DNA of 37,005 nucleotides from Anaeroplasmataceae bacterium (GTDB taxonomy: Bacteria > Bacillota_I > Bacilli_A > Acholeplasmatales > Anaeroplasmataceae): the NCBI GenBank assembly GCA_029057785.1, contig JAIDZC010000030.1, positions 1 through 37,005 of the forward strand. The letters are read 5' to 3'. Shown here one piece after another: positions 19,730 to 33,565 of the stretch. The notes beneath the pieces were generated by a model. The model did no database searches. It was not told the DNA's origin and saw only the letters and a program-made list of their open reading frames with translations. Both the position numbers and the translations under genes were made by a program. Each line of letters starts with the position of its first letter. Position 1 is the stretch's first letter.

Positions 19730-19797
19730 AAAATATAGATAAATAGGATATAGAGCTATTCTGACAATTCTAAATTTTTAAAAAAGGTGGAATGGAA

Positions 19798-20859
19798 ATG
19801 AAAAAGATATCTTGTCTAATGCTTATGATTTTTAGTTTATTTATTCTTATTGGTTGTAAGGAGGAAAACGAGAAAATAGAAAAGCCTCAAGATCAGCCTA
19901 TAGAAGAAGTCCATCAAGCTTCTCATGTAATGAAAGAATTAAATTTATTAGGTATGGCTTCCATCAAGGAATTCAAAGCAACTACACAACCTCATAAAGT
20001 AAAGCATTTCATTACAAAACAAAAGCAAGTAAAAGAATTAAGTGATGAAAAACCAACATATGTACCAGGTGTTACTTATCCTTACGATTATGTTAAAATT
20101 CATTCTGCGATGAAGTTTTCTATTTTCATTCCTGAAAATGTAGAGGATGAGGCACTAGAGGTGATTAAGGATTCTTGTGGCTTGGGGTACTTAGATGTTA
20201 TCATTGCTGATTTCTCAACTTTTGAATTTGATGAGAAAAAGGAAGAATTGCGTTTAGGAGTTCAAGACACAATGATTACACTCGTTGGGAAAAAGGGACT
20301 TTATACTATATTAGCTAATAGTGGAAGATATCAATATGATCAAGGCAAAACATATTTTTGTGAAGTCTATAGTTCACATAAAACGATTGATTCAAACAGC
20401 ATAAATAAATCCTCTGAACCGCCTTTTTATGGGATAAATGTGAATTATGGATATGATGGAATTTATAATGTATCCTTTTCTAAAAATGAGAATTATGCAA
20501 CCTATGATGATTTTACTTTAGTAACTAAATATACATATAATGCTACAACAGTAGAAAGAGTTGCTAGAGATACAATGTATAGCGTATTAGATTTAACTTC
20601 TTATCCTCAAGAATGGATAGAAGGAGATATTACTTCTATAAATCAAGAGGCAAGTTATTTTACTCTAAGAGTAGAAAAGGATTCCTTTATAGATGTATTC
20701 ATAAGCAAGAATACAGTTTTTGAGGACAATACAATAGAGATGGATAGTATATGGGAGTACCTAGAAATAGATGCACATATAGCTGTTTGCTATGACTATT
20801 GGTATGATGGATATGAACCAACGTATATATACGCGAATACTTTTAAACTATTTAGTTAA
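19798..20859 (+). CDS. Lipoprotein of unknown function
   Basis: A 353-residue predicted lipoprotein: basic start, hydrophobic core and lipobox LIGC near residue 20, followed by a Glu/Lys/Pro linker. The mature part is rich in beta-strand-like, Tyr- and Asp-containing segments, and I do not recognise a fold. AAAGGTGG lies 8 nt before ATG 19798, while ATG 19792 would be almost touching it, so 19798 is chosen. It is flanked by terminators and has its own promoter, so it is a single-gene unit. Surface location is firm; function is open. Confidence 0.8.
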   Translation: MKKISCLMLMIFSLFILIGCKEENEKIEKPQDQPIEEVHQASHVMKELNLLGMASIKEFKATTQPHKVKHFITKQKQVKELSDEKPTYVPGVTYPYDYVKIHSAMKFSIFIPENVEDEALEVIKDSCGLGYLDVIIADFSTFEFDEKKEELRLGVQDTMITLVGKKGLYTILANSGRYQYDQGKTYFCEVYSSHKTIDSNSINKSSEPPFYGINVNYGYDGIYNVSFSKNENYATYDDFTLVTKYTYNATTVERVARDTMYSVLDLTSYPQEWIEGDITSINQEASYFTLRVEKDSFIDVFISKNTVFEDNTIEMDSIWEYLEIDAHIAVCYDYWYDGYEPTYIYANTFKLFS

Positions 20860-20886: not shown

Positions 20887-20948
20887 TTTTGTTGCTGAAA
20901 TAAATTTATTATCCATTTACTCTTTTTAGCAGAATGATAATAAGAGAA

Positions 20949-20976
20949 TTGACAAATACTAGAAATAGCGTATAAT
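20949..20976 (+). promoter_or_regulatory. Promoter of the NAD synthesis unit
   Basis: TTGACA (20949-20954), 16-nt spacer, TATAAT (20971-20976). ACTA in the spacer (20958) and TAGT after the -10 (20979) are possible half-sites for a regulator, but this is too short to claim. Confidence 0.75.
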
Positions 20977-21000
20977 TATAGTAACGATGGAGGTATTCCT

Positions 21001-22914
21001 ATGCTAAAAAAATATGGATATGTACGTGTAGGTGCGGCTGTAAACAAATTAAAGATTGCAGATATCACCTATAACGTAGAAGAAATGAAAAAAATCTTAG
21101 ATGAGGCAATAGAAAAGGGAATAGAGATTTTAACCTTCCCAGAGCTATCTCTTACAGGCTATACCGCTCAGGATTTCTTTTTAAATGATGATTTAATTAA
21201 AGGTACTTTAGTGGGGTTAGATGCTTTAAAGGAATATAGTAAAACACATTCTATAGTCTTCATTGTAGGTGCACCACTTAAGATTGGGAATGCTTTATAC
21301 AATTGTGCTGTAAGCTTTTCTGATGGTAAGATTATTGGTGTTACACCAAAGACTTATATTCCAAACTATAATGAATTCTATGAGGCAAGATATTTTGCTT
21401 CTGCAGAACGATTAACTGAAACAAGCTTTACTTTATTAAAAGAAGAGGTAGCAGTTTCTAATTTATTGTTGTATCATGCAAAAAATTATGATGAGATTTG
21501 TTATGCCATAGATATTTGTGAAGATTTATGGGCTGCGAATTCCCCAAGCAATAAAACAAGTGTTGCAGGGGCTACCATTATATTTAACCTATCTAGCAGC
21601 AATGAGCTTGTTGGAAAATGTAATTATAGAAGAAACCTAATTAAATCTCAAGCAGCTAAAACAATGTCTGCCTATGTTTATGCATCTTCAGGAATATCAG
21701 AATCTACAAGTGATTTGGTATTTTCAGGTCATGCTATGATTGCTGAGGCAAATGGTGAGGTAGTAGAAAACGAAAGATTCTCTTTTGAATCTTCAATCAT
21801 TTATCAGGATGTAGATGTTTTAAGAATTTCTCATGATAGATTATCTCGTCCAACTGCAGAAGGTATTTTTAAAGAAGGTAATTTTATTCACACTACCTTT
21901 TCTCTTGTAGATATAGAAAATACTCTATCTAAAAAATATACAAAGACGCCTTTTGTTACGAAGAATCAAGATGCCTTAGAAGAAATATTAAATCTTCAAA
22001 CCTTTGGTCTTGCTAAAAGAATTAAGCATTTAGGAAATGCAAAAATGGTTATAGGTATTAGTGGAGGAGCAGATTCTACTTTAGCCTTTCTAATTTGTTT
22101 AAGAGTAGCCAAGGTACTAAATCTTCCTGCATCTGATATTCATGCAATTACTATGCCTGGCTTTGGAACAAGTGGTAGAACTTATCAGAATGCGGTACAG
22201 TTAATTCAAACTGTAGAGGCAACATTTAAAGAAATATCAATTAAAGATGCTTGTATACAACACTATAAGGATATAGAGCATGACCCAAAGGTATTTGATG
22301 TGACTTATGAAAATGCTCAGGCAAGAGAACGTACTCAAATTCTATTTGACTATGCCAATAAGATCAATGGTATCGTAATTGGTACAGGAGATTTATCTGA
22401 AATAGCTTTAGGCTGGGATACCTATAATGGAGATCATATGTCTAGCTATGCAGTAAATGTGTCTATTCCTAAAACCTTAGTTACTGCATTAATTGCTAAG
22501 GTTAGGGATGATAGTGAAGAGGGTGTGTTTAAAAATACTCTATCAGATATTTTAGATACTCCAATATCTCCAGAATTATTACCACCAGATGCTGATGGTA
22601 AAATTACTCAAAAGAGTGAATCTAGTGTGGGTCCATATATCATTCAGGATTTCTTTTTGTACCACTTTATGCGCTATGGGGCTAGCGTAAAGAAGTTATA
22701 TTTCTTAGCTTGCCAAACCTTTGAATATCCTAAAGAGGATATTAAGAGATATTTAACGACATTTATCAAGCGCTTCTTTACTCAGCAATTCAAAAGAAAC
22801 TGTATGCCTGATGGTGTTAAGGTTGGAACAATCAGCTTATCTCCACGAGGGGATTTAAGAATGAGTTCAGATACTTCCTATAATCTTTATCTAAAGGAAT
22901 TAGAGAGCTTATGA
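21001..22914 (+). CDS. nadE: Glutamine-dependent NAD+ synthetase
   Basis: Last step of NAD synthesis: converts deamido-NAD to NAD using ATP and ammonia taken from glutamine. At 637 residues it is the long two-domain form. The N-terminal nitrilase-type glutaminase domain has FPELSLTGYTAQDF (Glu), TPKTYIPNYNEFYE (Lys) and DICEDLWA (Cys). The C-terminal synthetase domain has the PP-loop GISGGADST near residue 355 and GTGDLSEIALGW. ATG 21001 has GGAGG 7 nt upstream. It overlaps the adenylyltransferase fusion gene by four bases (ATGA), so the two proteins are translationally coupled. Confidence 0.96.
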   Translation: MLKKYGYVRVGAAVNKLKIADITYNVEEMKKILDEAIEKGIEILTFPELSLTGYTAQDFFLNDDLIKGTLVGLDALKEYSKTHSIVFIVGAPLKIGNALYNCAVSFSDGKIIGVTPKTYIPNYNEFYEARYFASAERLTETSFTLLKEEVAVSNLLLYHAKNYDEICYAIDICEDLWAANSPSNKTSVAGATIIFNLSSSNELVGKCNYRRNLIKSQAAKTMSAYVYASSGISESTSDLVFSGHAMIAEANGEVVENERFSFESSIIYQDVDVLRISHDRLSRPTAEGIFKEGNFIHTTFSLVDIENTLSKKYTKTPFVTKNQDALEEILNLQTFGLAKRIKHLGNAKMVIGISGGADSTLAFLICLRVAKVLNLPASDIHAITMPGFGTSGRTYQNAVQLIQTVEATFKEISIKDACIQHYKDIEHDPKVFDVTYENAQARERTQILFDYANKINGIVIGTGDLSEIALGWDTYNGDHMSSYAVNVSIPKTLVTALIAKVRDDSEEGVFKNTLSDILDTPISPELLPPDADGKITQKSESSVGPYIIQDFFLYHFMRYGASVKKLYFLACQTFEYPKEDIKRYLTTFIKRFFTQQFKRNCMPDGVKVGTISLSPRGDLRMSSDTSYNLYLKELESL

Positions 22915-24329
22915 AAATCGGAGTATATGGCGGATCCTTTAATCCATGTCATTTAGTGCATAAGCAAATTGTTTTGACTTTGTTGGAGCAATATGACTTT
23001 GATCGAATCATTTTATTGCCCACTGGAAATTTTTATAAGAAAAGTAATTTAGCAAAAGGAGAAGAGCGTATCCATATGCTAAATTTAATGTTTCAAAATC
23101 ATCCAAAGGTTATCATCTGTGACTACGAATTTAAAAACAATTTAATCTGTACTTATAGAAGTTTAGATTATTTGCAAAATCTCTATAAGGGAGATGAGCT
23201 TTACTTTATTATGGGAAGTGATAATCTTCTTCATTTTGATACATGGAAACGATATGAATACATTTTAGATACCTACAATTTATTTGTTATTGTTCGTAAA
23301 GATATTGAACTAAAAGGAGTATTAGAAAAATATCATAATCATAAAGGTAAGATTGAACTTGTTGATATAGAAGTAGAAGGCTTTAATTCCTCATTTATAA
23401 GAGAGTGTGTAAGTGAAAATAAATATGATGAGGTGGCTCATATTTTAGATTCTAATGTATTAAGATATATTCAAGAAAGAAGAATCTATACAAAGGAATA
23501 TCAAGAATACAGAGAGATTAAATATACCTCTGATGAAGAGTTTTTAAAGAATTACAATAGTGATGACTACGAAAAGATGAGTATTACTACGGATATTACT
23601 TTATTTAGTATAAGTGATATTGAAACTCAAAATTATCGCAAAAAAAATGGGAAAAGCTTTAGTATTCTTTTAGTTGAAAGAGAGTCAGCCCCATTTATGA
23701 ATCGCTACTGTATTCCAGGAGGATTTCTTTCTTTAGACGAAAAGCTTTTAGATTCAGCAAAAAGAATTCTTTTTACAGAGGCAAATATTGATGATGTTTA
23801 TTTGAATCAATTTCATACCTTTTCTGATATTGATAGAGATATTAGAGGAAGAGTGTTATCTGTAAGTTTTTTAGGTTTGATTGATAAGACAAAGATTGTA
23901 GGCGACTTAAAAGCAAAGGCAAGCTTTTTTGATTTAACCTTAAGTCAAAACCAAGATATAGTTACGATTGAATTTAAAAATGCATTCAAGGAATTCAGTT
24001 GTAAAGTAAAAAGAACAATAGATAGCTATGGAATTATTAGCTATAGAGAAATCGAAAATGAGTATTTAGCTTTTGATCATTTAAAAGTGATAGCCACTGC
24101 CTTAGAATATTTAAAAACTCAGATTCAAACACATGATATTGTTTATCATATGTTACCAAAAGAATTTACTTTAAAGGAGCTTCAGCTAGTCTATGAGTCT
24201 ATTTTAGGAAAAAAACTCATAGATTCAGTCTTCAGAAGAACTATAAAAGATAAAGTGAGTCCGACGGATAAATTTAAAAATGATGGAGGACATCGTCCTT
24301 CTAGGCTGTATAGCTATAAGACAGAATAA
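22911..24329 (+). CDS. nadD: NadD adenylyltransferase fused to a Nudix/winged-helix (NrtR-like) module
   Basis: A 472-residue fusion. Residues 1-~195 are nicotinate-nucleotide adenylyltransferase: GVYGGSFNPCHLVH (nucleotidyltransferase motif), MGSDN, and SSFIREC near the end (the second ATP motif). Residues ~205-375 form a Nudix-fold domain: SILLVERE, then a Nudix box at 270-293, GGFLSLDEKLLDSAKR followed by ILFTEAN. The consensus G(5x)E(7x)R is kept, but the next residues do not match REUXEE, so hydrolysis is doubtful. Residues ~415-472 (LPKEFTLKELQLVYESILGK, then DSVFRR) match the winged-helix domain that follows Nudix in NrtR-type regulators of NAD metabolism. It overlaps nadE by ATGA. It is therefore probably an enzyme joined to a sensor or DNA-binding regulator; the regulatory role is inference. 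Confidence 0.88.
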   Translation: MKIGVYGGSFNPCHLVHKQIVLTLLEQYDFDRIILLPTGNFYKKSNLAKGEERIHMLNLMFQNHPKVIICDYEFKNNLICTYRSLDYLQNLYKGDELYFIMGSDNLLHFDTWKRYEYILDTYNLFVIVRKDIELKGVLEKYHNHKGKIELVDIEVEGFNSSFIRECVSENKYDEVAHILDSNVLRYIQERRIYTKEYQEYREIKYTSDEEFLKNYNSDDYEKMSITTDITLFSISDIETQNYRKKNGKSFSILLVERESAPFMNRYCIPGGFLSLDEKLLDSAKRILFTEANIDDVYLNQFHTFSDIDRDIRGRVLSVSFLGLIDKTKIVGDLKAKASFFDLTLSQNQDIVTIEFKNAFKEFSCKVKRTIDSYGIISYREIENEYLAFDHLKVIATALEYLKTQIQTHDIVYHMLPKEFTLKELQLVYESILGKKLIDSVFRRTIKDKVSPTDKFKNDGGHRPSRLYSYKTE

Positions 24330-25621: not shown

Positions 25622-27109
25622 ATGAAAGTAGAAAAATTAGAACATAGTCGTAATAAGGTTGTTTTTGAGGTAACACCTGAAGAGTTTGAAAAAGCTTTAG
25701 ACAAGGCTTTTGAAAAATGTAATGCAAAAGTTACAATAAAGGGCTTTAGAGCAGGTAAAGCACCTCGTTCAGTTTATGAAAAAATGTATGGAGTGGAATC
25801 TTTATATGATGAAGCCATCAATGTTGTTTTAAATAACAAGGCTCAAGAAATCTACAAAGATCAAGATTTGGCAAAGGAAATTGTTGGTCCTTTTGAACCA
25901 AACTTTGAAAGTGATGAGAAGCTAGAACGTGGTAAATCATTTAAGGTTTCTTTATCCTTTGATGTATATCCAGAAGTAAATTTACCACAATATAAAGGAG
26001 TAGAGTGTGTAGCTGCAAACCTAACTGTTAGTGATGCTGATGTAGATGCTGCAATTAAGTCTATTATGGCAAAGGATGCCTCTATGGAGGTTAAGAAGGA
26101 ACAGGTTATTGAGGCAGGAGATACTGCGAACTTTGATTTTGTCGGCAGTGTTGATGGTGTTGAATTCCCTGGTGGTAAGGCAGAAAATTATGAATTAGAA
26201 ATTGGCTCAGGTCAGTTTATTCCTGGATTTGAGGATCAAATGATTGGAATGAAGGCTGATGAAGTTAAGGATGTCAACGTAACCTTCCCTGAAAATTATG
26301 GCGAGAAATCCTTAGCTGGTAAGCTAGCAGTATTTAAGGTAACTGTTCATGAGGTTAAACATAAGATTTATCCTGAGCTTACAGATGAATATGTAAAAGA
26401 ACAAAAATTGACTGATATTGAAACTGTTGCTGCTTGGAAGAAAGCTAAGAAGGCTGAATTGGAGGCTTCTAGAGAAAAATCTGAAAAAGATCGCCAAGTA
26501 GATGAAATAATCAATAAGATACTAGATAATGCCGTTGTGGATATGCCTAAGGCTTTAGAAGAAGAAAGAATTTCTCAAGTTCGTGGACAATACGAACAAC
26601 AAGCTAAGATGTATAATATTCCATTCGAGACTTTCTTAGGTTTAATGAACATTACTAAAGAAAAGTTTGAAGAAGATACTGAAAAGCAAGGTAAGCGCCA
26701 AGCATTGTTTAATGTAGTTGTTTCTAAGATTATTGAAGTTGAAAATTTAACTCCAACAAAAGAAGATATTGAAGCTAGGGCAGAAGCAGATGCTAAGGCT
26801 CATAATAGCAAAAAGGAAGTAATGCTAAGAAATAATGCTCAAAGATATTATAGTGATATCGCATATCAAAGAGTTGTAGATTTATTACTTTCAAATGCAA
26901 CTATGGTTGGTGAGGCTGCTCCTAAGAAAGCTCCTGCTAAAACATCAACTGCTAAAACTACTGCTGCAAAATCTTCAACTAAGAGCACTACAGCAAAAGC
27001 AAGCACAACGAAGTCTTCTACAAAGACTACTGCAACAAAAACAAGTACAGCTAAGTCTACAGCCACAAAAAAGACAACTACAAAGAAGACTACAAAAACT
27101 ACTGAGTAA
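25622..27109 (+). CDS. tig: Trigger factor with Lys/Thr/Ala-rich C-terminal tail
   Basis: Ribosome-associated chaperone with peptidyl-prolyl isomerase activity, 495 residues; usual family length is near 430. The N-terminal ribosome-binding domain starts MKVEKLEHSRNKVVFEV and has the ribosome-contact loop GFRAGKAPRSVYEKMYG. The FKBP-type isomerase domain (~155-245) has GDTANFDFVGSVDG and GSGQFIPGFEDQMIGM. The C-terminal chaperone arms run to about residue 430. From there to the end is a ~64-residue low-complexity tail made almost only of Lys, Thr, Ser and Ala (units such as KTSTAK and TKSSTK), ending in Glu. The tail resembles histone-H1-like basic tails and is not part of the known fold. The start follows an unusually distant AGGAGG. 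Confidence 0.95.
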   Translation: MKVEKLEHSRNKVVFEVTPEEFEKALDKAFEKCNAKVTIKGFRAGKAPRSVYEKMYGVESLYDEAINVVLNNKAQEIYKDQDLAKEIVGPFEPNFESDEKLERGKSFKVSLSFDVYPEVNLPQYKGVECVAANLTVSDADVDAAIKSIMAKDASMEVKKEQVIEAGDTANFDFVGSVDGVEFPGGKAENYELEIGSGQFIPGFEDQMIGMKADEVKDVNVTFPENYGEKSLAGKLAVFKVTVHEVKHKIYPELTDEYVKEQKLTDIETVAAWKKAKKAELEASREKSEKDRQVDEIINKILDNAVVDMPKALEEERISQVRGQYEQQAKMYNIPFETFLGLMNITKEKFEEDTEKQGKRQALFNVVVSKIIEVENLTPTKEDIEARAEADAKAHNSKKEVMLRNNAQRYYSDIAYQRVVDLLLSNATMVGEAAPKKAPAKTSTAKTTAAKSSTKSTTAKASTTKSSTKTTATKTSTAKSTATKKTTTKKTTKTTE

Positions 27110-29639: not shown

Positions 29640-29663
29640 TAGCCTAAGAAGGAAGTGTCGGTA

Positions 29664-31154
29664 ATGAATGAACCTGTATTGTATGTTATAGGAGATTCTA
29701 CAGTTTCCAGCTTTAATGATCCATATTATTATCCAAGATATGGCTATGGAACAAAGCTTGAGTACTATTTTGAAAATATAGAAATTGTAAATTTAGCATT
29801 GTCAGGTAGAAGCTCTAAAAGTTTTCTAGAAGAAGAAAACTATAAAAAGCTAATGATGAGCTTAAAGCCTAATGATTTTTTAATGATTGGCTTTGGTCAT
29901 AATGATGAAAAGAGTGATGACCCTTTACGTTTTACAGATGCTTCAAAGCCTGTAGAAGATAAGAATTCTTTTTCCTATTCCTTATATGAACACTATATAA
30001 AACCCGCTTTAGATAAGAAAGCAATCCCCATTTTATGTACTCCCATTTGTAGAGTAGATTTGAAAAATGATTACACAAAAAATAGTGGTCACATTACTCC
30101 AAATGGAGATTATAGAGAAGCTATTCTAAATCTTGGAAAACAGAAGAATGTAACAGTTTTGGATTTGACTTTAGCTACAAGGCATCAGTATATGAAGCTA
30201 GGGTATTTAGAAGCTATGAAATATCATGCAACTATAGCTGGAAAATATGGAAAGGATAATCATATCATTCCTGATTTAGCTACAGTTGATACGACGCATT
30301 TAAATGCATATGGGGCTAAGTATATTGCATATTTAGTGGCTTCTCTCATAAAACAAACCAATTGTCCATTAAAGGAATATACCTTAGATCAATTGGTTGA
30401 ACCAAAGGAAGATTTAGATTTAGTGCCAAATCCAGCGTATAAGGTACGTGTCTATGAAACACCAAAGTTAGAAGAGTATCAACCAAAGGAGCATTTTAAA
30501 ACTTTAACAGAAGGATGGTATGGAACAGCTTTTGGTGATTGTGGAGGCTTACCCGATGAAGAAGAACATGGATTTGTTGCAAAAGAAATAAATCTAGGTA
30601 CTTTCTGTGTAGGTCAAAAGGGAAATGCAGTAAAAGGTAAAATTTCTTTAATTTCAGATGGTTTGGCATTTTGCTTTAGAAAAATAGATGCGACTGATAA
30701 TTTTATTCTTTCTGCAAAAGCTAAAATTCTTCAAACTGCTCTTGTTAAGCAAGCAGGCTTTGGCTTGATGCTTAGAGATGACTGCTACATCCAGCAGAAA
30801 GCAAACAATGAAATCATCACCTCTAACTTTTTGGCAGCAGGGATAGTGACAACAGATGTAACGATGAGTCCCATCTTTTATAGAGAACAAGCAGAGCTTC
30901 ATAAAGAAGAACCTTTATTAGACTTTCTATATCAAGAGGATGATGTTGCTGATTTAAAAATAGAACGTGTTGGACAATCTATGAAGATGAGCTTAACCTA
31001 TAAAGGTATTTGTTATTCTAAGAACTATGTTGACTTTGATTTGCTAGCAATTGATCATAATTATATGTATGTAGGAATGTTTGCTACTAGAGGTACAGTT
31101 GTAGAATTTAGTGATGTTGATTTTAAAATAACTGGGAAATCCCAGGGGGCATAA
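29664..31154 (+). CDS. Cytoplasmic SGNH/GDSL esterase (rhamnogalacturonan acetylesterase-like) with C-terminal beta domain
   Basis: A 496-residue SGNH-fold hydrolase without signal peptide. Block I is VIGDSTVSSF (nucleophile Ser12), block II ALSGRSSKSF (Gly), block III GFGHND (Asn) and block V DTTHLN (Asp and His), so the catalytic set is complete. The GDST form and spacing match CE12-type rhamnogalacturonan acetylesterases. From about residue 255 a ~240-residue C-terminal part (TEGWYGTAFGDCGG, GFGLMLRDDC, MFATRGTVVEFSDVDFKI) looks like a beta-sandwich domain, perhaps carbohydrate-binding; I cannot name it. ATG 29664 is chosen over GTG 29655 because AAGGAAG lies 8 nt upstream and overlaps the GTG. 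It is a close paralogue of the next gene. Confidence 0.85.
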   Translation: MNEPVLYVIGDSTVSSFNDPYYYPRYGYGTKLEYYFENIEIVNLALSGRSSKSFLEEENYKKLMMSLKPNDFLMIGFGHNDEKSDDPLRFTDASKPVEDKNSFSYSLYEHYIKPALDKKAIPILCTPICRVDLKNDYTKNSGHITPNGDYREAILNLGKQKNVTVLDLTLATRHQYMKLGYLEAMKYHATIAGKYGKDNHIIPDLATVDTTHLNAYGAKYIAYLVASLIKQTNCPLKEYTLDQLVEPKEDLDLVPNPAYKVRVYETPKLEEYQPKEHFKTLTEGWYGTAFGDCGGLPDEEEHGFVAKEINLGTFCVGQKGNAVKGKISLISDGLAFCFRKIDATDNFILSAKAKILQTALVKQAGFGLMLRDDCYIQQKANNEIITSNFLAAGIVTTDVTMSPIFYREQAELHKEEPLLDFLYQEDDVADLKIERVGQSMKMSLTYKGICYSKNYVDFDLLAIDHNYMYVGMFATRGTVVEFSDVDFKITGKSQGA

Positions 31155-31177: not shown

Positions 31178-33565
31178 ATGAAGAAAATATTTTTTGCATT
31201 TTTTAGTTTAATTTTGGTTGTATTTTTAGTATCTTGCAATGGCAAAAAGGAAGTACCACCAGTTCCAGATGGGCCAGTTCAGCTTGCAACACCTGTCTTG
31301 AGTATCAAAAATAATGTAGTTACTTGGGAAGCTATTCCTAATGCAGATTCTTATCTTGTACATGAGGAAGGAGAGCTTGTTAACAACAATCTTTCCTCTT
31401 TTATTGAGAATACAGTAACAACAACGAGCTATACAATTGAGCCTTTTGGCAAAGGAACTTACTATGTTAAAGTTCAAGCAATTTCTAAGAATAAAGAAAA
31501 TTTTAAAGATAGTGAGTTTTCAAAGAATGTAAGATATATATGTTCTAAGTTTGATCCAATTGTAATTGCAGCGCCTGTGTTAAGGCTAGAAGGCAACGTA
31601 GTACGTTGGAATATGGTTCCTTTTGCAGATGCATATATTGTAAATATAAATGGTGTTGATTTAGAAGAACAAGGTGGAACAAAATATACAATTACTGCAA
31701 CAGAGCCAGGAGAATATGTAATTAAGGTTAAAGCAATTGCTTATGGAGCAGAAATGGATGATGAAATAGAAAATAGTGCATATTCAGCCCCTGTTACCTA
31801 TACTATATTAGCCACAGAACCAACAACACTTTCTACACCTTCTCTTAAACTAACAGATAAAGTAGTATCTTGGGAGGAAATAGAGAATGCAGATGGGTAT
31901 ATTGTTTTCCTAAATGGAACGGCATTAGAAGAACAAACAGAAACCTCTTATACCATAGTAGTAGAAGAAGATGGAGACTATGAGGTAGCAGTTAAGGCAA
32001 TTTCACATCAGTCTAGTCAATATTTAGATAGTGAATTATCTACTGAAGTTGTTTATCATTATGAGACACCTTTTGAAAAAGTTCCTGCAACCTTATTTGT
32101 TGTAGGAGATTCTACACTTGCAAGCTTTGCAGATTCTTATTATTATCCACGTTATGGATATGGTACACAACTTGCAAATTATTTTGATGCAGCTATCAAG
32201 GTCAATAATCTTGCCTTATCTGGAAGAAGCTCTAAGAGTTTTATTACAGAGACGAATTATACAACCTTAAAGAATAATTTAAAAGCTGGAGATTACTTAT
32301 TGATTGGCTTTGGTCATAATGATGAAAAAAGTGATGATGCAGCTCGTTTTACAGATGCATCTAAGCCTTTGACTGATTCAACATCTTTTAAATATAGCTT
32401 GTATGAATATTATATTAAGCTTGCGTTAGAGAAAGGTGCAACTCCTATTTTATGTACACCTATTGTTCGTGCTGATAAAAATAATACTTACACAGCTTCT
32501 AATGGACATGTAACAGCTACTGGAGATTACGCACAAGCTATTGTTGAGCTTGGACAAGAGAAGAATGTAACGGTTATCAATTTAAGAGATTTAACTAAGA
32601 AGAAATACACAGATTTGGGTTATAGTGAGGCAATCTACTATCATGCCATGACTTCTGGAAAGAAAGAAGGAGCAGAGGTTGTAGTAGATACCAATTCTGT
32701 TGATACAACACATCTAAATATTTATGGAGCAAAATATGTTGCTTATTTAGTAGCTTCTGAACTTGCTAAAACAAAGAACACTCTAGGAAAATATGTTCTT
32801 GCAGATATCATAGAGCCTACAAAGGATAAGGATTTAGTAAAAAATCCAAGCTACTCATTTGTTGATTATACTTCACCTAATTTGGCATCTTATCAAGCAC
32901 CAGCACATTACAAGACAACAAGTGAGGGCTGGTATGGAACAGCCTTTGGTGATTGCGGTGGAGATCCTTCCGCCTCAGTCAATGGATACAGGGCTAAGGA
33001 AATAAATGGAGGATTTGAAGTTGGTCAAACAACAGCCTCTGTAAAGGGAAAATTTGCAAGTGCTGGTGATGGCTTTGCCTTCCTTTTCCAGCAGATATCT
33101 AAGGATAAGAATTTTGAAATTACAGCATCTGCAAAGGTAACTTCTACAGCATCAACTAAGCAAGCAGGCTTTGGTTTGATGCTAAGAGATGACTGTTTTA
33201 TCAATCAGACAGATAAAACAAAAACAATTACCTCAAACTATTTAACGGCAGGATTTGTCACAAAGGATAGCAGTATGAATGCATTAGTCTATAGAGAAAA
33301 TACTGCCTTAGTAAATAATGCAAATAATATCTCTTTTTTATACCAAGTGGATGATACAGCAGAATTTACGATTATTCGTTTAGGTCAGTCTATTACAACT
33401 AGTATAGTGTATAAGGGAAAAACCTATACAAAGACCTACTATGATTTTGATTTATTCTCTGTTGATACAAACTATATGTATATCGGTATGTATGCAACAA
33501 GAGGAACTGTAGTTGAATTTAGCAATGTAAGCTTAGTTATCACAGGTACATCACAGGGAGCTTAA
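31178..33565 (+). CDS. SGNH esterase lipoprotein with three FN3-like repeats
   Basis: A 795-residue surface lipoprotein. It has a signal with lipobox LVSC, a Pro-rich linker, then three ~90-residue FN3-like repeats (~35-125, 125-215, 215-300) sharing a core such as NVVTWEAIPNADSYLV, NVVRWNMVPFADAYIV and KVVSWEEIENADGYIV. The SGNH esterase domain follows: VVGDSTLASF with Ser312, ALSGRSSKSF, GFGHND and DTTHLN. The last ~260 residues are the same C-terminal domain as in the upstream paralogue. AAAGGAG precedes ATG 31178. It probably deacetylates pectin (rhamnogalacturonan) at the cell surface, with the cytoplasmic paralogue acting on imported oligomers; this division is inference. Confidence 0.88.
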   Translation: MKKIFFAFFSLILVVFLVSCNGKKEVPPVPDGPVQLATPVLSIKNNVVTWEAIPNADSYLVHEEGELVNNNLSSFIENTVTTTSYTIEPFGKGTYYVKVQAISKNKENFKDSEFSKNVRYICSKFDPIVIAAPVLRLEGNVVRWNMVPFADAYIVNINGVDLEEQGGTKYTITATEPGEYVIKVKAIAYGAEMDDEIENSAYSAPVTYTILATEPTTLSTPSLKLTDKVVSWEEIENADGYIVFLNGTALEEQTETSYTIVVEEDGDYEVAVKAISHQSSQYLDSELSTEVVYHYETPFEKVPATLFVVGDSTLASFADSYYYPRYGYGTQLANYFDAAIKVNNLALSGRSSKSFITETNYTTLKNNLKAGDYLLIGFGHNDEKSDDAARFTDASKPLTDSTSFKYSLYEYYIKLALEKGATPILCTPIVRADKNNTYTASNGHVTATGDYAQAIVELGQEKNVTVINLRDLTKKKYTDLGYSEAIYYHAMTSGKKEGAEVVVDTNSVDTTHLNIYGAKYVAYLVASELAKTKNTLGKYVLADIIEPTKDKDLVKNPSYSFVDYTSPNLASYQAPAHYKTTSEGWYGTAFGDCGGDPSASVNGYRAKEINGGFEVGQTTASVKGKFASAGDGFAFLFQQISKDKNFEITASAKVTSTASTKQAGFGLMLRDDCFINQTDKTKTITSNYLTAGFVTKDSSMNALVYRENTALVNNANNISFLYQVDDTAEFTIIRLGQSITTSIVYKGKTYTKTYYDFDLFSVDTNYMYIGMYATRGTVVEFSNVSLVITGTSQGA

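Follow-up and report, generated by a model that had tools for sequence, protein, structure and literature searches.

A NadD–NrtR fusion protein predicted to autoregulate the nadE operon in two genera of Anaeroplasmataceae

We analyzed a 37,005-nucleotide stretch of DNA from an Anaeroplasmataceae bacterium (the window) in which one gene joins a nicotinate mononucleotide (NaMN) adenylyltransferase, NadD, to a regulatory module of the NrtR type. Our best reading of the sequence is that its product is a bifunctional NadD::NrtR protein, at once the only detected, predicted NaMN adenylyltransferase and an NrtR-type repressor. We consider it probable that the nadE-nadD::nrtR operon is negatively autoregulated by this protein and that repression is relieved by an NAD-derived ligand. 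Two related genera of gut-type bacteria have the enzyme for the immediate NAD precursor permanently joined to an NAD-gene regulator of a DNA-binding type, and a conserved site upstream suggests that the enzyme shuts off its own operon.

The fusion gene (22911-24329, forward strand) is a single unbroken open reading frame (ORF) of 472 amino acids whose 5′ end overlaps nadE via ATGA. A preliminary description of this DNA had given its coordinates, strand, frame, and overlap with nadE (21001-22914) exactly, and its claim that NadD, Nudix, and NrtR-type winged-helix domains share one frame is upheld by profile searches. The NadD equivalog model TIGR00482 scores 123.1 bits against a cut-off of 112.45, placing the protein within the NadD family. 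NUDIX (PF00293) matches residues 247-325 with 26.3 bits (cut-off 21.1) and NrtR_WHD (PF21906) matches residues 412-468 with 60.6 bits (cut-off 27); the winged helix is present as proposed, but the match is narrower than the residues 375-472 first assigned to it. A Nudix-like domain followed by an NrtR winged helix, both above the cut-offs of their Pfam models, is the layout of NrtR regulators. Since the NCBIfam NrtR equivalog NF050029 reaches 113.6 bits, far below its cut-off of 400, we call the module NrtR-type by its domains and not a member of that equivalog. Its closest solved relatives are BtAraR (5bs6), E. faecalis 2fml, and SoNrtR (3gz5), and phmmer aligns residues 205-471 with 2fml, an Enterococcus faecalis Nudix/winged-helix protein, at E 1.5e-19. 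Searched with profiles, the whole genome yields the fusion gene as its sole NadD match and also as its sole PF21906 match.

Table 1 Features of the nadE-nadD::nrtR operon in the window
Feature	Coordinates	Strand	Basis
Probable operator CTTTTTAGCAGAATGATAATAAG, 23-mer	20922..20944	+	Conservation; core TTAGCA-GAA-TGATAA at 20926-20940
Near-consensus sigma-70-type nadE promoter, TTGACA-16-TATAAT	20949..20976	+	Sequence, conserved in 7 species
nadE, glutamine-dependent-type NAD(+) synthase, 637 aa, first gene of the operon	21001..22914	+	NF002730, 781 bits, cut-off 473
NadD domain, nicotinate mononucleotide adenylyltransferase	22911..23495	+	Residues 1-195; TIGR00482, E 1.4e-35
Linker between NadD and the NrtR module	23496..23522	+	Residues 196-204; alignment, stop-free in all complete copies
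Nudix-like effector domain, degenerate box	23523..24062	+	Residues 205-384, box 271-293; PF00293; matches AraR, 2fml, SoNrtR
NrtR winged-helix DNA-binding domain	24063..24326	+	Residues 385-472; PF21906 at 412-468, E 1.6e-16

The active-site motifs of NadD are present as GGSFNPCHLVH and NSSFIR (GxFxPxHxxH and SSTxIR types) and are maintained across the fusions except in two genomes, G009 (first H to N) and G001 (SNQIR); the NadD half would be expected to convert NaMN and ATP to NaAD. An AlphaFold model of the protein matches solved NadD structures with a target TM of about 0.73-0.86, its Nudix part being weak and its NrtR half poor. Modelled alone, the NrtR half is of low confidence (pLDDT 55), and we therefore build no fold claim on that model. 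Separate translation of the NrtR half was considered and rejected: M223, the first methionine past NadD, already lies within the Nudix domain and is not preceded by an evident ribosome-binding sequence.

The Nudix box reads G271-x5-E277-x7-R285-I-L-F-T-E290-A-N-I, as had been described. Of the three REUXEE glutamates, all 16 aligned fusions lack those at positions 286 and 289, and none of the 16 has the intact GX5EX7REUXEEXGU box of active Nudix hydrolases. Because the box keeps its G, E, and R and has lost these two glutamates, the fused Nudix fold is more plausibly a sensor than a hydrolase; degenerate Nudix boxes are common among NrtR regulators (PMC4666351, PMC12735969). Such a box would also suit a module that works in cis only, its Nudix-like domain binding ADP-ribose or NAD to tune NadD and its winged helix being a non-binding structural remnant, and the module is indeed covalently joined to the enzyme in every complete copy. 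However, purifying selection is strong on each of the three domains (dN/dS about 0.05) and all parts are kept: in pairwise comparisons within the window's genus, dN/dS is 0.045-0.068 for NadD, 0.059-0.070 for the Nudix domain, and, with one pair saturated, 0.038-0.075 for the winged helix, so that selection on the winged helix is as strong as on the enzyme. The winged helix also scores far above its cut-off, retains the FRR and DGGHRPSxLY-type stretches in the fusion alignment, and is accompanied by a conserved palindrome at the operon promoter. We regard action in cis only as very improbable and favor a fusion protein that, judging from these features, would bind DNA.

The search for relatives that the preliminary description had proposed turned up 20 genomes with this fusion, 15 of them with a full-length copy, all from two Anaeroplasmataceae genera. 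Of 11 genomes in the window's genus (g1), 9 carry it (7 complete, 2 cut by contig ends), as do 11 of 27 (8 complete, 3 cut) in a second genus (g6). Wherever the contig extends far enough to show it, the gene directly preceding the fusion is nadE; in the remaining genera of the family, most genomes encode a separate NadD of ~190 aa adjoining nadE. Wider sampling took in 160 genomes from the order, 395 from the class, and 392 from the phylum, with overlap between the three sets; beyond g1 and g6, none of them showed an NrtR_WHD frame exceeding about 330 aa. The fusion, earlier called unusual, is accordingly confined to two genera of one family in the sampled order, class, and phylum, and the literature searched, which did not cover the founding NrtR paper (Rodionov 2008), gave no description of a NadD-NrtR fusion. 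The genomes of the relatives are metagenome assemblies, a source in which two genes could appear joined by misassembly or a frameshift, but such an artefact is ruled out by the independent copies: separate assemblies yielded 15 complete copies, 54-92% identical to that of the window, and these share the same junction and contain no stops. Two near-complete genomes of the fusion-bearing genera (G004 and G021) have no detectable NadD or large NadE. The NAPRTase model TIGR01514 exceeds its cut-off in 0 of 10 genomes, but it does so in only 2 of 14 control genomes as well, and we therefore draw no conclusion that pncB is missing.

A phylogenetic tree groups the NrtR modules of all 15 complete fusions in a single clade (support 100/99), whose sister is a stand-alone NrtR of g6 (G124; support 98/94). 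This stand-alone gene stands at the end of an NAD-gene cluster comprising an isochorismatase-family (pncA-like) gene, NAPRTase, prs (ribose-phosphate pyrophosphokinase), and NAD kinase. The simplest reading of the tree and gene order is a single fusion event from an NAD-operon NrtR. Stand-alone NrtR-type genes were also seen in two other settings. In G022 one (L036:1-1183) directly follows an NAD_synthase-domain gene, apart from that genome's large nadE; in G079, from another family of the order, one is followed by a methyltransferase-like ORF and an SPFH/band7-like ORF (L085:519-5468), and a further ORF at this locus, without a Pfam match, resembles NAD kinase by eye.

We then consider the DNA upstream of nadE. 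Of the region 20940-21000, put forward earlier as the promoter, the core promoter is indeed inside (-35 at 20949, -10 at 20971), but the operator-like site lies just upstream of it, at 20922-20944. Seven g1 species share a near-invariant block here, TCTTTTTAGCAGAATGATAATAAGAGAATTGACAAATA, and the DNA further upstream is unalignable. The 23-mer CTTTTTAGCAGAATGATAATAAG is an imperfect palindrome (8/11 pairs); 9 of the 11 g1 genomes carry it exactly or with a single mismatch, against 0 for a reversed-pattern control. At up to 3 mismatches there is one site per genome in 9 of 11, plus one extra 3-mismatch match in G007; the g1 genome G004, without the fusion and without a large nadE, also lacks the operator-like site. 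In g6 the promoters differ, but the core of the site is shared: TTAkCA-N3-TGATAA stands at the equivalent place before the -35, with TTAACA in three loci. We propose that CTTTTTAGCAGAATGATAATAAG, which is new in this analysis, is probably the operator of the fusion's operon; from its conservation, the predicted site would give the operon the palindromic operator upstream of NAD genes that is a trait of NrtR systems. Another candidate operator, TACTA-N17-TAGTA around the -10 in the window, was rejected, being absent from some relatives and no more frequent in the genome than its control. As for a second regulon member, the extra 23-mer match (G007:C48) was also set aside; it lies near a 1296-aa surface-type ORF.

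The core is found upstream of nadE at 16 of 16 fusion loci, among them G132, which was read after the pattern was set, and at 0 of 15 nadE loci without the fusion, counts that do not amount to a probability because the genomes are related and not independent. The pattern itself was derived from fusion loci. The 15 include two g6 orthologues with 65% identity (G123 and G144), in one of which (G144) nadE is preceded by an isochorismatase-family gene and another adenylyltransferase. Where the fusion is missing, nadE is mostly not the first gene of its operon and has coding DNA in front of it, so that the direct comparison is only partly fair; scanning whole non-fusion loci on both strands, which reaches some of their operon promoters within limited flanks, gave a single core match, which in L114 (G023) lies ~200 bp beyond the point where the nadE match stops. 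The window's genome holds five core sites, about the number in the reversed control. The nadE site alone is intergenic, and the other four were rejected as marks of a second regulon member, all lying inside ORFs.

The site could instead belong to another transcription factor, such as a niacin or metal regulator, with the fused NrtR regulating something else. The g6 sites contain TGATATTATCA, which bears a vague resemblance to Fur-type boxes. However, the element common to both genera is TTAkCA-N3-TGATAA and not a Fur-type 7-1-7 box, it is absent upstream of fusion-less nadE genes in the same family, and the genome has no second intergenic core site. We judge ownership by another factor very improbable.

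Because the palindromic site at the nadE promoter goes with the fusion, we favor autoregulation; of the two roles suggested in the preliminary description, autoregulator and allosteric sensor, the former gains from this association. When NAD is plentiful, the protein, probably as a dimer, would sit on the core palindrome just upstream of the -35 and bar RNA polymerase from the nadE-nadD::nrtR promoter. As NAD is turned over, an NAD-derived ligand, most likely ADP-ribose by analogy, would be sensed by the Nudix fold of the C-terminal half and free the protein from DNA, so that the last two steps of NAD synthesis would be induced together. Characterized NrtR proteins of NAD metabolism are repressors and several are released by ADP-ribose (PMC4666351, PMC12735969, PMC6800001), which makes negative autoregulation relieved by an NAD breakdown product likely.

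The direction of control may be judged from the promoter. With its center ~16 bp upstream of the -35 and ~-50 from the likely start, the site occupies a place that an activator could also use, and the NrtR half might accordingly activate the operon. However, the promoter is already near consensus (TTGACA-16-TATAAT) throughout g1, the distance from the site center to the -35 varies among g6 loci, and the NrtR proteins of NAD metabolism have been described as repressors (PMC4666351, PMC12735969, PMC6800001). A near-consensus promoter, a site adjoining the -35, and variable spacing in g6 fit occlusion better than activation; to activation we attach very little probability, and the predicted direction is repression. 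Coupling between the two halves, in which a substrate or product of the NadD half or a ligand of the Nudix half alters DNA binding by the winged helix, or perhaps the reverse, is a tentative and rather doubtful idea; were it true, the working state of the enzyme would set the transcription of the last two NAD synthesis steps. If NAD homeostasis in these small genomes rests, as the negative autoregulation proposed here suggests it may, on a single enzyme-regulator acting at a single promoter, then one protein and a 40-bp DNA probe would be enough to test directly how enzyme amount, ligand, and transcription are linked.

The window has other features, all on the forward strand. A lipoprotein-like ORF without a Pfam match (19792-20859) separates nadE from an RNA pseudouridylate synthase gene; it looks like a lineage-specific insertion, because several relatives seem to have the predicted nadE operator immediately after the end of the pseudouridylate synthase frame. 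The trigger factor gene (25622-27109) encodes an extra C-terminal tail of ~65 residues very rich in Lys, Thr, Ala, and Ser, the Trigger_C match ending before it at residue 423. Two neighboring paralogous GDSL-type hydrolases (29655-31154 and 31178-33565) differ in that one has a lipoprotein-like signal and repeated N-terminal domains and the other does not.

Among known systems, the fusion resembles NrtR (SoNrtR 3GZ5/3GZ6, MsNrtR, streptococcal NrtR) in its Nudix-like domain with a C-terminal winged helix, its degenerate Nudix box, its place among NAD genes, and, as in mycobacteria, a ~23-bp palindromic site at an NAD-gene promoter. In contrast, classical NrtR is a separate protein, and the predicted operator differs in sequence from the mycobacterial and streptococcal NrtR boxes; the 23-bp palindrome bound by mycobacterial NrtR is different from CTTTTTAGCAGAATGATAATAAG (PMC6800001). 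BtAraR (5BS6), an NrtR-family arabinose regulator of Bacteroides, is the best solved sequence relative of the NrtR half, but it is a stand-alone sensor of L-arabinose that regulates sugar genes. NadM-Nudix proteins (NMN adenylyltransferase/ADP-ribose pyrophosphatase, 2QJO, 2R5W) likewise place a Nudix domain after an adenylyltransferase, but with an NadM-type enzyme, a catalytic Nudix domain, and no winged helix; their NCBIfam models cover only about residues 248-335 of the fusion and score far below cut-off, which sets it outside that class. Enterobacterial NadR also combines adenylyltransferase and repressor in one chain (PMC6800001), and the two are alike in uniting an NAD-pathway adenylyltransferase with the pathway's transcriptional repressor, repression by the fusion being predicted. 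NadR differs in consisting of an HTH repressor, an NMN (not NaMN) adenylyltransferase, and a ribosylnicotinamide kinase, in a different domain order and with DNA-binding and sensing modules unrelated to those of the fusion, in which no Pfam match to a NadR-type HTH or kinase was found and which does not share the NadR layout. The fusion is best read as convergent with enterobacterial NadR, built from NadD and NrtR, and, if this is true, it would be the second independently built adenylyltransferase-repressor of the NAD pathway, after NadR.
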